DNA from: Candidatus Krumholzibacteriota bacterium
GTDB lineage: Bacteria > Krumholzibacteriota > Krumholzibacteriia > LZORAL124-64-63
Length of the DNA stretch: 45,218 nucleotides
NCBI GenBank assembly: GCA_024275485.1
Contig: JAJRZA010000077.1
Span: forward strand, 1 to 45,218
Direction: 5' to 3'
Below, piece after piece: positions 11,617 to 21,222 of this stretch (position 1 is its first letter; each line of letters starts with the position of its first letter). The position numbers and the translations under genes were made by a program. Below the pieces are notes generated by a model. It was given only the letters and a program-made list of their open reading frames with translations, searched no databases and had not been told where the DNA came from.

Positions 11617-13728
11617 ATGCCCCTGTTGTTCACCACCTTGCCCAATCTTTTTATTCCCCTGGCCTACATCGGGCCCGGGGCCGGATTTGCTTTGGGTGGC
11701 AGTTTCCTCTTCGCACTGGTGGGGATTTTGCTGGCAGTGGTGGCGGTGCTGGCCTGGCCTTTGCGGGGTCTGTTGCGGTCGATGCGGGGGCGGGGAAAAC
11801 GACGCCCTGATGCTGCCAAACGTGTGGTCGTGCTGGGCCTGGACGGTTTTGATCCGGTCATTTGCAGGAAGATGATGGACGATGGGGATCTGCCTCATTT
11901 GTCAGCCATGCGAGAGGATGGCGGCTACCGTCCTTTGTTGACCACCTATCCCGCCATGTCGCCGGTGGGTTGGTCCACTTTTGCCACCGGGGTTGGTCCT
12001 TCGGGGCACAACATTTTCGATTTTTTGAGCCGTGACCTGGCGACACATTTGCCCGTTTTGTCATCGACGAAATTGCACCGTCGACCTTCGCGCTCCATCG
12101 GGCCCGTACCTCTGCCCGGCGGCGGGTCCCATTTTGAACTTCTTCGCCGCAGCAAACCTTTCTGGAAGACCTGCGCCGAAACCGGGCTGGCCAGCACCAT
12201 TTTGCGGGTGCCCATCACCTTCCCGCCGGATAAGTTTGGCGGCAAACTGCTTTCGGCCATGTGCGTTCCGGATTTGCGTGGCACCCAGGGCACTTTTTCC
12301 CATTACACATCGGTTGAGGCGCACGGTGCCCAGCAGGGTGTTCGCACCACCGGCGGTGTCCGCCTGGAGCTGGATCAAACGGCGCCGAACATATATACCA
12401 GCATTTTGACGGGTCCGGATCTTCCGGATGGCTCCGGCAGCATGACGTTGCCGGTATGTGCAACGGTTGACCCGGTTGCCCGGCGCGCGGAGTTCACCAT
12501 CGGCCCGGAAAAATTTTCTCTCGGCGCCAATCAGTATTCCGAGTGGATTCCCGTTGTGTTTGGGTCCGGCGGCGCCAAGGCCCACGGCATTTGCAAGGTG
12601 CGGGTGACATCGTTTGAACCGGGCTTTTCGTTTTATATCACGCCGGTGAACATAGATCCGCGCAATCCCGCCATGCCCATCAGCAACCCTCCACATCTGG
12701 CCATCGCCCTGTCTCGTCTTCAAGGTAGATTTGCCACCCTCGGCCTGGCCGAAGATACCTGGGCCCTGAATGAACGGGTCATCGACGAACAGGCTTTTCT
12801 GGACCAGGCCTGGGCCATTCACGCAGAGCGCCGGCAGCAGTTCTTCCACGCTCTGGATCGCCAGCCCGACGGTGTGGTCTCGTGTGTGTTTGACGCCACC
12901 GATCGCATCCAGCACATGTTCTTCCGTTACCTCGACCAGGACCATCCGGCCAACGTCGGCAAGGATACGGAAAAACATAAAAACGTAATTGGCGATCTAT
13001 ATCGCACCGCCGATGCCCTGGTGGGTGAGACGCGTGCCAAAATGCACCAGGATGATGTGCTGCTGGTCATCAGTGATCATGGTTTCAAGACTTTTAAGCG
13101 CGGGGTGAATCTGAACAGCTGGTTCCGGGAAAATGGCTACCTTTTTCTGAAAACCGACCCTGATCAGGGGCCGTTGCCGGCCATTGAAAAAGGTCTGCGC
13201 TACGAAGTGGCGGATGTCGATTGGCCGCGCACCAGGGCTTACACCAATGGGTTGGCCGGTTTCTACATCAACGTGAAGGGGCGAGAAAATGACGGCTGTG
13301 TGGACCCATCCGACGCTTCAGCCCTGAAAAAGGAACTGATTGATGCCTTGCGGGGTTTGCCGGATCCGGAGCGGACCGGCGAGGCCATCACCGAACTTTG
13401 GGATTGCAATGAAATCTACCGTGGTCCCTACAAGAGCAATGCTCCGGATGTCATCGTCGGTTACAAGCCCGGTTACCGGGCCGATTGGGATGCTGCCGTC
13501 GGTGCGGTGTCCGGCGAGGTGATCAGTGACAATACGCGCAGCTGGTCCGGCGACCACTGCATGGATCCACGGCAGGTGCCGGGTGTGCTGTTCAGCTCGA
13601 AGCCTTTTGCGGTGACCAGGCCCGCCCTTCTGGATATGGCGCCCACAGTGCTGGATTTGTTGGGCGTGGATGCTCCGCCGCACATGACCGGAAGCAGTAT
13701 TTTCCGCAAGAGGGAAGGGACCGGCTGA
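11617..13728 (+). CDS. Membrane-anchored alkaline-phosphatase-superfamily phosphodiesterase (first paralogue)
   Basis: 703-residue enzyme of the type I phosphodiesterase/nucleotide pyrophosphatase group. Residues 13-50 hold the motif AYIGPGAGF and a TM anchor. The catalytic fold starts at VVLGLDGFDP (Asp76, metal ligand). The probable nucleophile segment is MSPVGWSTFATG; the other metal-site motifs are DRIQHMFFR, VISDHGF and WSGDHCMD. All three paralogues in this operon keep a Ser-Pro in the nucleophile segment, so Ser is the likely nucleophile. It ends with the PALLDMAPTVLDLLG block shared with the second paralogue. Its stop overlaps the next start (TGATG). The substrate (phospholipid head group, glycan phosphate or nucleotide) cannot be told. 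Confidence 0.88.
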   Translation: MPLLFTTLPNLFIPLAYIGPGAGFALGGSFLFALVGILLAVVAVLAWPLRGLLRSMRGRGKRRPDAAKRVVVLGLDGFDPVICRKMMDDGDLPHLSAMREDGGYRPLLTTYPAMSPVGWSTFATGVGPSGHNIFDFLSRDLATHLPVLSSTKLHRRPSRSIGPVPLPGGGSHFELLRRSKPFWKTCAETGLASTILRVPITFPPDKFGGKLLSAMCVPDLRGTQGTFSHYTSVEAHGAQQGVRTTGGVRLELDQTAPNIYTSILTGPDLPDGSGSMTLPVCATVDPVARRAEFTIGPEKFSLGANQYSEWIPVVFGSGGAKAHGICKVRVTSFEPGFSFYITPVNIDPRNPAMPISNPPHLAIALSRLQGRFATLGLAEDTWALNERVIDEQAFLDQAWAIHAERRQQFFHALDRQPDGVVSCVFDATDRIQHMFFRYLDQDHPANVGKDTEKHKNVIGDLYRTADALVGETRAKMHQDDVLLVISDHGFKTFKRGVNLNSWFRENGYLFLKTDPDQGPLPAIEKGLRYEVADVDWPRTRAYTNGLAGFYINVKGRENDGCVDPSDASALKKELIDALRGLPDPERTGEAITELWDCNEIYRGPYKSNAPDVIVGYKPGYRADWDAAVGAVSGEVISDNTRSWSGDHCMDPRQVPGVLFSSKPFAVTRPALLDMAPTVLDLLGVDAPPHMTGSSIFRKREGTG

Positions 13729-15719
13729 TGCACCGCAGGTTGATGTTGATGGTACTTGTTTTCATTATTGTTGCCCCCGCAACTATCTTGGTTGCCCCCG
13801 CAACGATACTGGCGGCGGACACCAAAGTCCTGGTTCTGGGTTTTGACGGCATGGATCCGCAATTGCTGGCTGAGTATCGCGGTCGGGGTTTGATGCCCAA
13901 TTTCGACAAGTTCATGGCCGATGGTGGCCAGCTGACGCCTTTCGGCACTTCCATCCCTCCGCAATCGCCGGTGGCCTGGAGCAACTTCATCACCGGACGT
14001 GATCCGGGCGGGCACGGCATCTTCGACTTCATCCATCGTGACCCCGAAACCATGCTTCCCACCTCGTCCACCAGCGAAGCCAAGGGAGCCACCCGCTTCT
14101 GGCAATTTGGTTCCTGGAAAATCCCTCGTGAGTCGGCTGATATTCACAATTTGCGCCAGGGAACGGCTTTCTGGGAGATCCTGACCGAACACGGTGTCGA
14201 TGCGACCATCTTCCGCGTCCCGGCCAACTTCCCCCCGGTGGAGTGCGAGGCCCGCAGCTTGTCGGGCATGGGCACTCCGGATATTACCGGCAACTATGGC
14301 ATCAGCACCTTGATCACCGATGATCCGCCGTTGAACCGCGATCTGGGTGGTGGCCGTATTGTCTCGGTGTGGCTGGACGACGGGATTTTCACCGCCGATC
14401 TGATCGGCCCCCGCAACTCCTATCGTGAGGGTGATCCCGAAACAACCGTGCCCATCGAAGGCAAGGTGGATCGCCGCACCCACGCGGCATGGCTGAATGT
14501 CGGGGGCACCGAACTGGTTCTCAACCAGGGCGAGTGGAGCGACTGGGTGACAGTGCAGTTCGAGATGGTTCCCTACCTCCAGAAGGTGAGCGGAACCTGC
14601 CGACTCTTCCTCATGGAAACCGACCCGGTCTTGCGCCTTTACGCCACGCCGGTGCAGATCGACCCGAAAAACCCGGTCATGCCCATCAGCACCCCCGATT
14701 CCTACAGCAAGGAAGTCGTCGACCAAACCGGCTATTTCTACACCCAGGGTTTGCCCGACGATACCAGCGGCCTGGAAAACGGATTTCTCAGCGACCACGA
14801 CTATGTCCAGCAAAGCGGCATGGTGTTGTCCGAACGCATTGAGCAATTGAGCGCCGAGCTGGATCGTTTTGCCGACCTTGAAGAAGGTTTCCTCTTTTTC
14901 TACTTCAACTCCCCGGATCAAATCTGTCACATGATCTGGCGCAACATGGACGTCAGCTCCCCTACTCACGCCGAGGCCGACAGCCGTCACGCCGATCGCC
15001 TTGCCGAGGTGTATGCCGAACTGGACAGCGCTTTTGGCCAGGTCCTGGAACAGGTGACCGACGACACCATTGTCATGGTCATGAGCGACCATGGTTTTGC
15101 ACCCTGGAACAGGGCCTTCAACGTGAATACCTGGTTGCATCAGAATGGTTATCTGGGGTTGAAGGACGAATCGAATCCCACTTCAGTGGATATGCTTTTG
15201 GGGATCGATTGGTCCCGCACCAAAGCTTATGCCGTGGGTATCAACGGACTTTACATCAACCTGGCCGGACGAGAAAGAGACGGCATCGTCGATGCCGCCG
15301 ACAAGGACGCCTTGTTGACGGAGTTGAAAACCAAACTGGAAGCGGTGGTTGACCCCCAGTCGGGCAAGCTGGCCATCAAGGTGGCCGACCGCGCCGATCA
15401 GGTGTACCACGGTCCGTTGAGCGACACCGGGCCGGACCTCATCATGGGTTACCATCGGGGATGGCGCGGCAGCAACGAATCAGCCCTGGGGAAAGTGACT
15501 GACACCGTCTTTTCGGATAATATGTTAAAATGGAGTGGTGATCATTGCATTGCGGCCGATGAAGTGCCCGGGATATTGATGGCCAACCGGTCCATCCAGC
15601 GGGATAATCCTGCATTGGTCGACATGGCCCCGACCATTCTGAAATTGTTTGGAATCACTCCACCAGTGGAAATGGTGGGCGGCGATTTGTTCGCGCTCCG
15701 AAAGAAAGGAGACCGCTGA
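13728..15719 (+). CDS. Secreted alkaline-phosphatase-superfamily phosphodiesterase (second paralogue)
   Basis: 663-residue paralogue of the preceding gene, with a cleavable signal peptide (residues 1-30) in place of the membrane anchor. Metal and nucleophile motifs run in the same order: VLGFDGMDP, QSPVAWSNFITG, PDQICHMIWR, VMSDHGFAPW and WSGDHCIAADEVPG. The C-terminal block PALVDMAPTILKLFG matches the first paralogue. The start ATG shares bases with the previous stop, and the stop overlaps the next start (TGATG at 15717-15721), so translation is coupled on both sides. Its signal peptide contains a 21-base tandem duplication. Periplasmic hydrolase or phospho-transferase; substrate unknown. 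Confidence 0.88.
   Translation: MHRRLMLMVLVFIIVAPATILVAPATILAADTKVLVLGFDGMDPQLLAEYRGRGLMPNFDKFMADGGQLTPFGTSIPPQSPVAWSNFITGRDPGGHGIFDFIHRDPETMLPTSSTSEAKGATRFWQFGSWKIPRESADIHNLRQGTAFWEILTEHGVDATIFRVPANFPPVECEARSLSGMGTPDITGNYGISTLITDDPPLNRDLGGGRIVSVWLDDGIFTADLIGPRNSYREGDPETTVPIEGKVDRRTHAAWLNVGGTELVLNQGEWSDWVTVQFEMVPYLQKVSGTCRLFLMETDPVLRLYATPVQIDPKNPVMPISTPDSYSKEVVDQTGYFYTQGLPDDTSGLENGFLSDHDYVQQSGMVLSERIEQLSAELDRFADLEEGFLFFYFNSPDQICHMIWRNMDVSSPTHAEADSRHADRLAEVYAELDSAFGQVLEQVTDDTIVMVMSDHGFAPWNRAFNVNTWLHQNGYLGLKDESNPTSVDMLLGIDWSRTKAYAVGINGLYINLAGRERDGIVDAADKDALLTELKTKLEAVVDPQSGKLAIKVADRADQVYHGPLSDTGPDLIMGYHRGWRGSNESALGKVTDTVFSDNMLKWSGDHCIAADEVPGILMANRSIQRDNPALVDMAPTILKLFGITPPVEMVGGDLFALRKKGDR
13770..13811 (+). 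repeat. 21-base tandem duplication inside the signal-peptide coding region
   Basis: Two adjacent 21-base units (13770-13790 and 13791-13811) differ at one base and both encode VAPATIL. The duplication keeps the frame and lengthens the signal-peptide region by 7 residues. Confidence 0.9.
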
Positions 15720-15916
15720 TGTTTGGCGGCAGCAAGATCAAAGTCGATAAGGATCTCTTGGAAAAGGTCAAAAAATTCTCGGTCATCGCTGGTTATGCCA
15801 CTCCCGAAGAATTCGTGAAGCACGTGCTTGAACGCGAAATCAGCAAGTTCGAGGAAGCAGGCGACAGCGAAGAGGAAATCAAGAAGCGCATGCAGGGATT
15901 GGGCTACATTTCATGA
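15719..15916 (+). CDS. 65-residue ribbon-helix-helix-like protein in the phosphodiesterase operon
   Basis: Small soluble protein with no signal peptide. KIKVDKDLLEKVKKFSVIAG and then YATPEEFVKHVLEREI follow the strand-helix-helix pattern of ribbon-helix-helix proteins. An acidic segment and the ending MQGLGYIS follow. The lipoprotein phosphodiesterase two genes downstream ends almost the same way (LRSLGYIN). Its start overlaps the previous stop and its stop overlaps the next start (ATGA), so it is made stoichiometrically with its neighbours. It could be a DNA-binding regulator, or a cytosolic docking factor for the membrane protein encoded next. Neither is proven. Confidence 0.75.
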   Translation: MFGGSKIKVDKDLLEKVKKFSVIAGYATPEEFVKHVLEREISKFEEAGDSEEEIKKRMQGLGYIS

Positions 15917-16746
15917 CTTCGGTGGTGCGGGCAATCACCGGCGCTGTGAGTTGGGTCTTCGACCTGCTGATGGCTCCGTTTGCTTCCCTGCCCGCATTGG
16001 GGATGATCTTCATCAGCGTCTTGACGGCGGCTTGGGCCCTGCTGTTGTTCAAGGCCGTTACGCCCCAGGATCGTTTGCAGGCCACTCGGGACAAACTTTT
16101 CGGACACATCTATGAAATGGGTTTGTACCAGGACCACCTGGGAATACTGGCCCGCATTCAAGGCGATCTGGCCAGGGCCAACCTGCGCTATCTTCGTTAT
16201 ACCCTGCCGGCATTGGTGGCCTTGACCATCCCCATGATTCTGACCTTGGGGCAGCTGGAAGGCCGCTACGGCCAGCGTCCGCTGCAGGTGGGTGAGGAGA
16301 CCGTGCTCACCATAAGTGTAACAAACGATGAGTTGTCCAGTTTGCAGGATATCAAACTGGAAACCCCATCGGGAGTGGAAGTGGCCGCAGGGCCTGTTCG
16401 AAATGAACGTGCGGGGACTTTGTCCTGGCGTTTGCGAGCGACCTTAGAGGGGGCTCACGAGTTGCGTTTTCTGCGTGGCGGAAATTTGATTGGTTCCAAC
16501 GATTTGGTGGTGGGCCAGGGCTTGCCGGGGCTGCACGACCGCAGTGAAAACACGGTCCTGGGCATCCTTCTGTATCCAGGTGCGCCGGATTTGTCGGCCA
16601 GCACCGGCCTGGCGCACTTGAACATTCAATGGCCGGAACGTGAAACCCGGTACCTGGGACTGGAAATGAATTGGCTGGTGGCTTTCATGGTTTTTTCCAT
16701 GATGGCCGGTTTACTTCTGAAGGATCTACTGAAAGTCTCTCTTTAG
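15913..16746 (+). CDS. Three-TM membrane protein with EMC3/Oxa1-like topology and a periplasmic beta domain
   Basis: 277 residues. TM1 is at about 27-47 (LGMIFISVLTAAWALLLF). A polar helical, Arg/Lys-rich segment spans 48-95. TM2 is at about 96-114 (YTLPALVALTIPMILTLG). A beta-rich domain spans about 118-245 (VGEETVLTISVTN onward), and TM3 is at about 250-270 (NWLVAFMVFSMMAGLLLKD). The order TM1, cytosolic helical arm, TM2, TM3 resembles the DUF106/EMC3 branch of the Oxa1/YidC insertase superfamily, here with an extra external domain between TM2 and TM3. The resemblance is from topology and pattern, not alignment. Its ATG overlaps the stop of the small protein (ATGA). It may insert or anchor the operon's phosphodiesterases. 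Confidence 0.65.
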   Translation: MTSVVRAITGAVSWVFDLLMAPFASLPALGMIFISVLTAAWALLLFKAVTPQDRLQATRDKLFGHIYEMGLYQDHLGILARIQGDLARANLRYLRYTLPALVALTIPMILTLGQLEGRYGQRPLQVGEETVLTISVTNDELSSLQDIKLETPSGVEVAAGPVRNERAGTLSWRLRATLEGAHELRFLRGGNLIGSNDLVVGQGLPGLHDRSENTVLGILLYPGAPDLSASTGLAHLNIQWPERETRYLGLEMNWLVAFMVFSMMAGLLLKDLLKVSL

Positions 16747-16758
16747 ATTGGGAATGTG

Positions 16759-18063
16759 ATGAATACGCGAAAAACGCGAGGTTTGTGGGCGATGTTGGTT
16801 TTGGCCATGGTTCTTTTGTCAGGGTGTACGGGGAGGGACAATTCCAAGACTGCTAATAAGGAAGCTAACAAACTGCTCGTCATCGGCATCGATTCGGCTG
16901 ATTGGCGGTTGCTGAAACCCATGGTGGATGCTGGCCGTTTACCCCATCTGGCCAATTTCATGACCCAGTCGACCCATGGCCGGATGAAAACATTCTACCC
17001 CCTGGAAAAATCACCCCTGCTTTGGGCCAGCATCTGCACCGGCGTTTTGCCCGAAGTTCACGGGATCAACAATTTCGTCAAGGGCTCCAGCCAGAAACCG
17101 GTGACCGGCAGTGCCTGGTTCGCGCCTGCGTTGTGGGATATCCTGGGCGCCGCCAACCGGTCGACCGCTTTGGTTGGCATGTGGACCACTTATCCCGCCC
17201 GCCGAATCAACGGGGTGATGGTGAGTGATTATGTTCCTTACGGCCGGACCCGGGATAAACCCCTGGCTGGTTTGTGTTATCCCGATTCGTTGGCCGAATT
17301 GGCCATGTCCCTGAGGGTTGCCGCTGAAGATATTACCGATGAACAACTATCCTGGTTTATCCCGGCGGACAAGTTGCCTGCAGCCAAGGAAAAGTACTCC
17401 ACTGAAATCGAAAAGCTGGCCGGAGTCCTGGCGGCTGATCTTACCTATCTGGCCATCAACCGCGAACTGGCCCAAGGCGATTCGTTCGATCTGTTCTTTT
17501 TCTATCTTCGTGGGCCGGACATGATCAGCCACTATTTCTACACATATCTTGCTCCGGAAAAAGGCAACTATCGTCACAAACCGGAAAAACTGGAAATTTT
17601 TGGTGAGGTGGTTGAAAAATATTTCGAATGGTCGGACAAAGTGACGGGTGAAGTCCTGGCCTGGTTTCCGGCTGATCGCCAAACAGTCATTCTTTCGGAC
17701 CACGGTTTTTATGGTCCCCGGGCCAGCAGCGAAAAGGGCACAGCCGAGCACAGCGAGTGGGGAATATTCCTGGTTCGCAGCCCGTTGTATGAAGCCGGAA
17801 AATCCTTCAACAATCTCGAATTGTTGGACATTTGTCCCACCTTTCTGGCTCTGGTGGGACTGCCGCCGGCCAAAGATATGCCCGGTTATATTTTGGATGC
17901 CGGATTGACCCCTGAAGGACGCAAACGGGTCAACCGGATGGAAGAGCATCGGGTGGAAAGCTACATGGCGTTGCGACCGGCCGATGGCCCGGCCGGGGAG
18001 CGGGACCAGGGTGTGGAGGAGGAGATTCGCAAGCAGTTGCGGTCGCTGGGGTATATCAACTAA
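16759..18063 (+). CDS. Lipoprotein alkaline-phosphatase-superfamily phosphodiesterase (third paralogue)
   Basis: 434 residues, last gene of the five-gene operon, 12 bases after the previous stop. The N-terminus is a lipoprotein signal with lipobox LLSGC. Catalytic motifs follow the family order: VIGIDSADW, EKSPLLWASICTG, GPDMISHYFY, ILSDHGFYGP and a His in AEHSEWGIF. It is shorter than the first two paralogues and lacks their large insert before the DxxxH motif. The C-terminus ends LRSLGYIN, echoing the 65-residue protein. A GTG at 16756 is in frame, but the ATG at 16759 is the simpler start. A hairpin terminator follows at 18069-18094. Confidence 0.88.
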   Translation: MNTRKTRGLWAMLVLAMVLLSGCTGRDNSKTANKEANKLLVIGIDSADWRLLKPMVDAGRLPHLANFMTQSTHGRMKTFYPLEKSPLLWASICTGVLPEVHGINNFVKGSSQKPVTGSAWFAPALWDILGAANRSTALVGMWTTYPARRINGVMVSDYVPYGRTRDKPLAGLCYPDSLAELAMSLRVAAEDITDEQLSWFIPADKLPAAKEKYSTEIEKLAGVLAADLTYLAINRELAQGDSFDLFFFYLRGPDMISHYFYTYLAPEKGNYRHKPEKLEIFGEVVEKYFEWSDKVTGEVLAWFPADRQTVILSDHGFYGPRASSEKGTAEHSEWGIFLVRSPLYEAGKSFNNLELLDICPTFLALVGLPPAKDMPGYILDAGLTPEGRKRVNRMEEHRVESYMALRPADGPAGERDQGVEEEIRKQLRSLGYIN

Positions 18064-18068
18064 AAAAA

Positions 18069-18094
18069 GGGGAGCCGGAAAATTCCGACTCCCC
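18069..18094. terminator. Hairpin terminator between convergent genes
   Basis: GGGGAGCCGGAA, loop AA, TTCCGACTCCCC: a 12-base stem with one mismatch. The A-run just before it (18062-18068) gives a U-tract for the minus-strand transcript of the thioredoxin-TPR gene. It could also help end the phosphodiesterase operon. Confidence 0.75.
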
Positions 18095-18119: not shown

Positions 18120-19322
18120 CTACCCGTCATTCCTCTCTTTCAAAATGTCTTCAAATTTGGCCAATTGCGTCTGAAAATATTTCCGATCCGGGCTGTAATC
18201 GACAGCTTGTCGCATCAGCTCCACAGCTTCCTGGCAATTATCCATGGCGTTGCAGATTTCCGCGGCAGTGTCGAGGATGTTGGCTTTCTGGGCAACATCG
18301 GGAGCCAGCTCCACACCGCGCAGGGCGAGGGTTTTGGCTTCTTCCAGATTGATCTTGTTTTCGAAGCACCACCAGGCAAAGTTGTTCAGGGCACCGGGGT
18401 CGTCTTGCCAGCCTTCGTCCATGCTTTTGCGCTTCAGCTTGAGGGCTTTTTTTGTATCCTTATCCACCAGCAAAGCGTAGTCGATTTCCAGGTCAATACG
18501 GCTATCAGCCAATTCGTCCTGGCCTTCGGATGCCTTCAGGGCTTCGGAAATGTAGGGAATGGCCGCTTCCAGATCACCCATCTGGGCCGCCATGCCACGC
18601 AACATCAGGGCCACTTCCACTTTGTCTTCGGCGGTAGCCTGTTTGGAATTCATGACGTAGTCGGCTTCTTCTTTCACCTGGTCGAGAGTGAAGGCACCAC
18701 CTCGAGATCCGTAATACATGTTGGTCAGGATCTCGGAAGTGTATTCGCGGGCACCGTCGGGATTCAATTGGCGGGCGGAACGAAAATACTTCACGGCTTC
18801 GGCAAAGTTGTATTCAACGGAAGCGGCGTTGGCCAGGGAGCAGGCCAGTTCCTTGGTGGCCTTCTCCTCAAAGGCGACTTTCTTTTGAGCCAGGGTGCGA
18901 CGATCCTGGTTGCCGGCTTTCACAAAGGAGGCCCATTTCGTGGGACCGGGATACCCGATCCAGGAGCTACTTACTTTACCGTCGCCGTTGACCATGATGA
19001 AGGTAGGGTAGCCGCGAACGTTGTATTTTTTCGCGACTTCGATACCCTCGCCGACTTCACAATTGTTGTTCCAGAAAACGACATCCTTGAGGGAGTCCTT
19101 GATGATCTGGCTGTTGTCCACCGCACGGGCGAACACTTTGCAGCTGGGTCACCAATCGGTATAGAAATCGATGACCAGCATTTTGTTTTCGGCTTTGGCC
19201 AGGGTCAGGGCTTCTTTGAATGAGGCAGGTTCCGAAGCCATGGCGGTGGCGGCAAAAGCCAGCAACATGGCGGCCAGCAACGTCAGCATGGCCAACCGGC
19301 TCCTGAGGGATTTATTTTGCAT
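18120..19322 (-). CDS. Exported thioredoxin-TPR protein with probable selenocysteine (active site UPSC)
   Basis: 400 residues if the in-frame TGA at 19151-19149 is read as selenocysteine. The ATG at 19322 has AGGAGA upstream and starts a signal peptide (LAMLTLLAAMLLAFAATAMA). The thioredoxin fold begins LVIDFYTDW, then TGA, then PSCKVFARA. The UGA sits exactly where the first Cys of the W-C-x-x-C active site belongs (position 58, resolving Cys61). The fold continues with the cis-Pro loop NVRGYPTFIMVNGDG. The C-terminal ~250 residues are helical TPR-like repeats. Conventional gene calling would start at a GTG at 19136 and lose the signal peptide and active site. A SECIS-like hairpin lies just downstream of the UGA. 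The likely role is a periplasmic thiol or selenol redox protein with a protein-binding scaffold. A nonsense mutation is the alternative. Confidence 0.8.
19115..19135 (-). promoter_or_regulatory. Candidate bacterial SECIS hairpin downstream of the in-frame UGA
   Basis: On the minus strand, nucleotides 14-34 after the UGA fold into an 8-base-pair stem with two G-U pairs and a 5-base loop CGUGC. G is the second loop base, followed by U. The loop begins 22 bases after the UGA. As recalled from published work, bacterial SECIS elements lie about 16-37 bases after the UGA and have a small apical loop with a G in its first two positions; this hairpin fits. Confidence 0.6.
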
Positions 19323-19413: not shown

Positions 19414-21087
19414 TCAGTCGGCCCGAAAAACTATCTGCCCGGCGACAATGGTCATCCGGACCTTCATTTGCAGCAGATCTTTTGGCTCGCAGGTGACGGG
19501 ATTTCCGTCCAGGACCGTCAAATCAGCCAAATAACCTGTTTTTAGCCGTCCCAATTCATCTTCCATGAATGCAGCGTAAGCCGAACCTGCGGTGTAGAGC
19601 TCCAGAGCCGTTGCACCATCCAGAATCTCCTGGGCCTGCCAGCCACCTTTGGGTGTGCCGTCGGCATGGGTGCGTGTGCGGGCGGCGTACAATCCGGCCA
19701 AGGGATCCACATGCTCCACGGGGAAATCAGTGCCGAAACACAGGTGGGCACCGGTTCCCAGCATGGTCTTCCAGGCGTAGGCCCCCTGCAGGCGATCTTC
19801 GCAGAGACGGGCTTCGGCCCAGTCCATGTCACTGGTACAATGAACCGGTTGCATGGCGGCGATGACGCCCAGTTCGGAAAAACGGGGAATATCCGCGGGG
19901 GAAATGATCTGGCTGTGCTCAATGCGCCAACGTGGATCCACCGGGTTGAGGGTTTCTTTCAACTCCTGAAAAATATCCAGCATGGTTCGGTTGGCGGCAT
20001 CACCTATGGCGTGGGCGCCGATTTGAAATCCGGCTTCGATGGCGCGTCGGGAAGTGGTGCGCAAATGCTCCAGATCCGTGACAAAAAACCCACGATGTCC
20101 CGTATGATCACAATAGTCTTCCAGCAGGCGGGCACCGCGGCTTCCGAGTGCGCCGTCGGCATACAGTTTCACTGCACGAACAGTCAGGATGTCGTCCGGG
20201 GTGAATATGGGCCCATGGGTAAAACCCGCCTTGAGGGTCTTGGGCACATCATCCAGAAACCCGTAGATTCGCAGATCAAGATTTCCTGCTTTGGCCAGCA
20301 TTTCGTAATAGCTCACTCGTTCCCAGGAAACTCCGGCTTCGTGAACGCCGGTGATGCCGAATCGATGACAGTGTTCAATGGCCAAATCCACCCGCCGGGC
20401 CATCTCCCCGGTGCTGGGGGCTGGAATGGTGGCGCGCACCAGGCCCACTGCGTTGTCGATGAGCAAGCCGGTGGGTTGACCGTTTTCATCACGAAGAATC
20501 TGGCCGCCTTCGGGGTCCGGAGTATTTTTGTGGATGCCGGCCAGTTCGAGGGCTTTGCTGCTGGCCAGGGCGGCGTGGCCATCAACCCGGCGCACCAGAA
20601 CCGGACGATCACCAACCACGCGGTCGATGAGATCCCGGGTGGGGTATTCCTGAATTTCCCAGTCGTTCTGATCCCAGCCGCGTCCCTGGAGCCAATCGCC
20701 GCCCGGGTTTTCCTCATGGGCCTTGGCAATCCGGGCCGCCACCTCGTCGGGACTGTTGGTTCCGTTCAGATCAATTTCAGACAGCGCCTTGCCGAGTCCG
20801 TAAAGATGGCAGTGACTGTCATTGAAACCCGGCACCACCACCGCGCCGTCAAGATTGATAACCTGTGTGTGATCATTCCGATGCAGCATCACCGATTTTT
20901 CAGCCCCGACTTTGATGATCCGGCCATCGGCCATGGCGATAGCTGTGGGCAGGGGGCCATTGGTGGCGCCGTCCTGAGAAATCAGTTGACCATTGATGAG
21001 GATCAGATTGGCGCCCTGATGCTCGGCCACGGATTGGCAACCAATCATGAAAATCAGAGCAAAGATCATGATAAAGGATCGGCGCAT
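19414..21087 (-). CDS. Lipoprotein amidohydrolase, YtcJ-like
   Basis: 557 residues of the metal-dependent amidohydrolase superfamily. It begins with a lipoprotein signal (MRRSFIMIFALIFMIGC), giving an anchored periplasmic or outer-membrane enzyme. The start at 21087 is preferred because the 22 extra residues from 21153 would spoil the signal. Metal-site motifs are present: NDSHCHLYG (HxH), GAHAIGDAANR, IEHSQI and FGTDFPVE. YtcJ-like enzymes hydrolyse C-N bonds in unknown small substrates; none can be assigned. It is divergent from the uracil-DNA glycosylase gene. Confidence 0.9.
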   Translation of the reverse strand: MRRSFIMIFALIFMIGCQSVAEHQGANLILINGQLISQDGATNGPLPTAIAMADGRIIKVGAEKSVMLHRNDHTQVINLDGAVVVPGFNDSHCHLYGLGKALSEIDLNGTNSPDEVAARIAKAHEENPGGDWLQGRGWDQNDWEIQEYPTRDLIDRVVGDRPVLVRRVDGHAALASSKALELAGIHKNTPDPEGGQILRDENGQPTGLLIDNAVGLVRATIPAPSTGEMARRVDLAIEHCHRFGITGVHEAGVSWERVSYYEMLAKAGNLDLRIYGFLDDVPKTLKAGFTHGPIFTPDDILTVRAVKLYADGALGSRGARLLEDYCDHTGHRGFFVTDLEHLRTTSRRAIEAGFQIGAHAIGDAANRTMLDIFQELKETLNPVDPRWRIEHSQIISPADIPRFSELGVIAAMQPVHCTSDMDWAEARLCEDRLQGAYAWKTMLGTGAHLCFGTDFPVEHVDPLAGLYAARTRTHADGTPKGGWQAQEILDGATALELYTAGSAYAAFMEDELGRLKTGYLADLTVLDGNPVTCEPKDLLQMKVRMTIVAGQIVFRAD

Positions 21088-21222
21088 GGCAGAATCTTTC
21101 GCTGGGGTCCCTGTAGACAGATTCGAACCTACAAGACAAGGTCGAATTTTCATACTACACTACCGCAGATTGATGATGGAACAAGCTCAACCTTGCACAT
21201 TCTCGACCTTGAAAGGCCCACC

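Follow-up and report, generated by a model that had tools for sequence, protein, structure and literature searches.

The minus strand of the window (the whole 45,218-nucleotide stretch of DNA analysed here) carries a thioredoxin-TPR (Trx-TPR) gene with an in-frame UGA at the first position of the active site, and there is very little doubt that this is a genuine selenoprotein gene, in which the UGA would be read as selenocysteine (Sec). Three of the features by which bacterial selenoproteins are recognised were found: an in-frame UGA in a Cys/Sec alignment column, a covarying hairpin (its upper stem-loop) downstream, and SelA, SelB, SelD and tRNA-Sec. The fuller reading, on which we are evenly divided, is that the gene represents an undescribed, Sec-dominated, exported Trx-TPR family, from which the forms in Krumholzibacteriota and Zixiibacteriota both descend with repeated Sec-to-Cys loss, and whose members would act as selenium-dependent, client-binding reductases or isomerases of the cell envelope.

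Table 1. Features of the selenoprotein locus, in window coordinates.
Feature	Position	Strand	Basis
Selenoprotein gene, probably exported thioredoxin-TPR protein, 400 aa	ATG 19322 to TAG 18120	minus	Translation, Pfam, homologues, AlphaFold
TGA codon 58, Sec, residue 1 of UPSC motif	19151-19149	minus	Translation; all homologues read have TGA or a Cys codon here
Signal-peptide-like N-terminus, codons 1-29 (RSR, hydrophobic helix, ATAMA-S)	19235..19322	minus	Sequence inspection, model
Thioredoxin domain, ~residues 30-139 (Sec58, Cys61, cis-Pro106)	18906..19235	minus	Pfam PF00085, closest solved folds, Pro106 in 43/43 rows
C-terminal TPR superhelix, residues 144-400, including Cys319 of WWC motif	18123..18893	minus	Pfam TPR matches, model
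SECIS-like apical hairpin GTTCGCC-CGTGC-GGTGGAC	19116..19134	minus	Core stem from 15 nt past TGA; alignment, covariation, folding
Intrinsic-terminator-like hairpin and T run, just 3' of selenoprotein gene	18069..18094	minus	Consensus match
Amidohydrolase (Amidohydro_3), directly 5' of selenoprotein gene, same strand	19414..21153	minus	Pfam, neighbourhood comparison

Translation of the minus-strand frame 19322-18120 reads MQNKSL...VIDFYTDW-U58-PSC61-KVFARA...NDG-TAG, in which the TGA of codon 58, the first position of the WUPSC thioredoxin site, is the sole internal stop. The original prediction of a W-U-x-x-C site with UGA in place of the first Cys was upheld by this translation, by a Pfam thioredoxin match that runs across the TGA (PF00085, residues 32-118; E 1.1e-12, 48.3 bits against a cut-off of 23.5), and by the Pfam TPR matches that lie C-terminal to it. 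Standard ORF calling produced only a 338-aa GTG ORF (18120-19136) starting past the TGA; because gene callers stop at codon 58, the signal peptide and the active site are both dropped, so that the loss of the N-terminus, which had been foreseen, in fact extends to the active site as well. The ribosome-binding site that had been proposed is indeed present as an AGGAG just 5' of the ATG; the export to the periplasm proposed with it is as yet what the signal-peptide-like N-terminus suggests. A hydrophobic N-terminus also recurs in the homologues, and the AlphaFold model has a helix at residues 6-25, with low confidence at 23-28. Judged from the sequence, export of the protein by an N-terminal signal peptide is most likely. 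The terminator-like hairpin past the gene has an 11-pair stem, and its consensus was matched three times against 2.2 expected.

Homologues were sought in 80 Krumholzibacteriota genomes at E <= 1e-40 and were retrieved from 34, of which 29 had one in-frame TGA, four had none, and one was a fragment without the site; the four genes without TGA, all from one family of the class, have Cys at the site. A relative was also found in 45 of 132 Zixiibacteriota genomes, with a TGA copy in 34 of the 45. The TGA fell in the codon 58 column in 27/27 Krumholzibacteriota genes read and in 18/18 from Zixiibacteriota, where 21 loci were read (TGA in 18, Cys in 3); it is to be noted that some of the homologue loci were chosen with an IDFYTDWC pattern, a selection that bears on the TGA/Cys count. 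At every locus read this column is TGA or Cys, and the comparison of homologues suggested with the original prediction thus came out in its favour, no unrelated residue being seen there. Alignment of the two phyla revealed that Sec58/Cys58, Cys61, Pro106 and Cys319 are invariant in 43/43 rows. Of the 43 relatives placed in a tree, seven have Cys instead of Sec, which indicates that Sec is favoured but not indispensable. In this quick tree of uncertain root, Sec requires four changes, and Cys appears in four scattered places among the Sec genes; this sequence-based picture would fit Sec being old and having been lost repeatedly. Separately, a contig labelled Caldisericaceae (L048, JAGHBR010000276.1, ~1683-2613) contains a TGA-bearing relative with a compensated hairpin and a broken frame; this contig is perhaps misbinned or poorly sequenced, and both its label and its state are doubtful.

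The AlphaFold model (mean pLDDT 93.2, pTM 0.82) begins with a hydrophobic helix, continues with a thioredoxin domain and ends in a run of 14 helices. The solved structures closest to the N-terminal domain are the DsbD gamma domain and thioredoxins, and those closest to the C-terminal part are consensus TPR superhelices. The thioredoxin fold, the CxxC-type site and the cis-Pro were all recognised by Pfam, model and alignment, placing the protein in the thioredoxin superfamily. The TPR part contributes a third Cys, Cys319 of its WWC motif, common to the Sec and Cys relatives alike. Motif and fold suggest a thioredoxin-type UxxC site at which Sec58 would make the nucleophilic attack and Cys61 would act as the resolving residue; the TPR superhelix may keep client proteins close to this site. 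Following export through its N-terminal signal peptide, the protein would most probably serve as a cell-envelope disulfide or sulfenic-acid reductase or isomerase, and it may be recharged by the single DsbD homologue of the genome, which has a C-terminal WCVYC thioredoxin domain. We lean slightly towards the envelope-reductase role; the link to DsbD is a guess, as are the client and the role as such. Profile and fold both put the DsbD gamma domain among the nearest thioredoxin-fold families of solved structure, but DsbD transports electrons in the membrane and has Cys, whereas the Trx-TPR product is a protein in its own right, with TPR repeats and Sec.

Within the selenoprotein reading, it is conceivable, though rather improbable, that the protein is mainly a CnoX-like chaperone (holdase) and not a reductase, its Sec site shielding the cysteines of clients. 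In CnoX/YbbN proteins, too, the thioredoxin domain is N-terminal and the TPR domain comes after it (PMC8129009), and the invariance of Cys319 in the TPR part would suit such a role. However, the CnoX of E. coli has an SXXC motif as its site and cytoplasmic GroEL as its partner (PMC8129009), whereas the UxxC/CxxC pair is intact in every relative read here and the N-terminus is export-like; furthermore, fold comparison with the PDB gave 49 matches at E <= 0.001, and CnoX (3QOU) was not one of them. E. coli CnoX has ten TPR helices in two five-helix subdomains (PMC8129009), as opposed to the 14 helices that follow the thioredoxin domain in our model. On sequence inspection, the signal-peptide-like N-terminus would argue against a cytoplasmic location. 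Membership in CnoX/YbbN was rejected, and only the analogy was kept. The envelope reductase remains our preferred role.

Strong added support for Sec, absent from the argument of the original prediction, comes from a covarying SECIS-like hairpin. It has a stem of 6-7 bp with a CGUGM loop, and its distance from the TGA is constant in every TGA gene aligned. The sequence is TTCGCC-CGTGM-GGYGRA in Krumholzibacteriota and GCCGCT-CGTGA-AGCGGA in many Zixiibacteriota. In an alignment of 28 sequences, 98% of the hairpin cells were paired, three pairs showed two-sided changes, and the covariation score was reached by 0/500 shuffles; with 45 sequences, 96.3% of the cells were paired, with 28 two-sided changes over four of the six pairs. 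Sliding the hairpin register lowered pairing to 57% or less with the 28 sequences and never left more than 58% paired in either alignment, and RNAalifold recovered the same stem unprompted. All 28 sequences use CGT for the Arg of the loop, compared with 33 of the 464 Arg codons downstream in the same genes (one gene being counted twice in the 464), i.e., an otherwise rare codon is fixed here because of the hairpin. In the Cys homologues examined, neither the FAR motif nor, in those folded, the hairpin was kept; one Zixiibacteriota Cys gene (L207) is an exception in that it keeps FARE. The minimum-energy folds showed no conserved lower stem reaching down to the UGA, and therefore the upper stem-loop alone is claimed. 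Rfam returned no match for the window at gathering scores, or for the gene region at E <= 1. Within the source genome, the exact hairpin pattern was mismatch-free in the selenoprotein gene only, the other hits being at control level; other selenoproteins there therefore use different hairpins.

The source genome (3.98 Mb, 96% complete) contains the full Sec machinery, as a check proposed with the original prediction had called for: selA (449.5 bits, cut-off 268), selB (330.6 bits, cut-off 242), selD (366.5 bits, cut-off 125) and tRNA-Sec (69.5 bits, gathering score 47), the last also reported by ARAGORN as tRNA-SeC with anticodon tca. The selD gene (L128, G000:C1:20138-21055) itself has one in-frame TGA (SAG-U-AAK) and is thus a selenoprotein gene. 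Among the relatives, selB scored above the cut-off in 36 of 38, the remaining two being incomplete genomes (81% and 87%). With machinery and hairpin both in evidence, UGA codon 58 would be decoded as Sec by SelB and tRNA-Sec under the guidance of the intragenic hairpin 15 nt downstream, which is the standard bacterial mechanism; Sec insertion is the step that we infer. The same genome offered further strong Sec candidates. Two AhpC-TSA/redoxin genes, L230 (G000:C105:32887-33249; NW-U-PVC) and L232 (G000:C20:11393-11668; NL-U-PVC), each have a strong hairpin past the TGA and are probable selenoproteins, and a peroxiredoxin gene, L225 (G000:C53:1165-1545; DFTPT-U-SMEIPG), probably encodes a Sec peroxiredoxin. 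A redoxin-like frame, L235 (G000:C57:42062-42415), reads GFG-U-GGC, a UxxC-type motif, with a weaker match (1.6e-5).

Readings of the TGA other than Sec were also considered. In bacteria, products of stop-codon readthrough exist and some species reassign UGA, so that leaky readthrough, or global reassignment of UGA to Trp or another residue, has precedent; nevertheless, it is most improbable here. Of the 23 long ORFs counted as genes in the window, 12 end in TGA, which is therefore not globally reassigned there; homologues read without the TGA always have Cys at this catalytic position; and the genome has both the Sec machinery and, at a fixed distance, the SECIS-like hairpin. Equally hard to sustain is a real stop at codon 58, which would leave a secreted peptide cut short at 57 residues and, from the GTG at 19136, a TPR protein of its own. 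An annotation pipeline would place a stop at this codon, and the 338-aa ORF does exist; however, thioredoxin conservation crosses the TGA, the GTG ORF would be without the first strand and half of the active site, the Cys relatives are continuous, and the hairpin and its codon constraint would be purposeless. Least credible of all is a pseudogene or a sequencing or assembly error, in which an ordinary Cys codon (TGC/TGT) would have become TGA through one miscalled base or through a nonsense mutation of recent date. A single base would suffice, but the TGA is conserved in independently assembled, divergent genomes, dozens of them in two phyla, in frames otherwise open, with a covarying hairpin and complete Sec machinery; this refutes such an origin, and the possible misreading of TGC or TGT raised at the outset is excluded as a base-calling error, since so many genomes share the TGA. 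Selenocysteine thus stands as the preferred reading of codon 58.

The neighbourhood was also inspected for a clue to function. The amidohydrolase is linked to the selenoprotein gene in 11 of the 19 genomes compared, and the two are perhaps co-transcribed, though not obligately. Positions 11617-18063 of the window hold plus-strand genes that converge on the selenoprotein gene: three of the type I phosphodiesterase family (PF01663) and one for a 277-aa protein without a Pfam match. Six or seven relatives also have part of this phosphodiesterase cassette. Neither the amidohydrolase nor the cassette is telling, and the neighbourhood was set aside as a guide to function.

Regarding novelty, the original prediction had not recognised such a protein as described, which holds for the thioredoxin-TPR architecture but not for the active site, UxxC thioredoxin selenoproteins being well known (PMC1794560, PMC13188914). 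Comparative genomics had put them on record by 2006 at the latest (PMC1794560), and Sec thioredoxins (PF00085, UxxC) occur in Geobacter, Treponema denticola and Carboxydothermus (PMC1794560, PMC13188914). The present protein shares with these the thioredoxin domain, Sec for the first Cys, and bacterial Sec decoding; however, they are described as small, whereas ours has a signal-peptide-like N-terminus and a TPR superhelix of ~255 residues, and forms a Sec-dominated family of its own. Fusions of Trx-like domains with other domains are listed in a 2026 inventory (PMC13188914). Among them, the Trx7/PDZ protein NF041199 and TsoB NF045694 (PMC13188914) are likewise multidomain, with Sec in a Trx-like domain, but have CxxU or UxxxxU motifs, PDZ or rhodanese/DsbD partners, and no TPR; TsoB matched the Trx-TPR protein weakly and partially (33.7 bits, cut-off 805), and no NCBIfam selenoprotein model scored above its cut-off. 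Cys thioredoxin-like proteins with TPR-like tails, in records of Neomarinimicrobiota and Aminicenantes, resemble ours in the IDFYTDWCxxC site but have Cys, not Sec. For three Cys proteins with such tails (L087, L096, L107), the alignment extends into the C-terminal TPR region; most other matches outside the two phyla cover the thioredoxin domain only. TPR is absent from the selenoprotein inventories of 2026 (PMC13188914) and 2022 (PMC9312934), and full-text searches of published, openly accessible papers yielded no thioredoxin-TPR selenoprotein; nor did the literature searched contain anything on selenoproteins of Krumholzibacteriota or Zixiibacteriota. Provisionally, therefore, the family is apparently undescribed. 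What is new is the Trx-TPR architecture and its spread; Sec in thioredoxin, its decoding and the active-site chemistry are already known.

Overall, these results add to two little-known phyla a selenoprotein family with a domain arrangement that we did not find described. The natural Sec/Cys pairs within this one family would make it possible to test what maintains Sec in a compartment beyond the cytoplasm, in which the selenol directly meets oxidants, and the fixed CGT codon of the loop, together with the constant spacing of the hairpin, makes a clean case of an RNA structure constraining a protein sequence.
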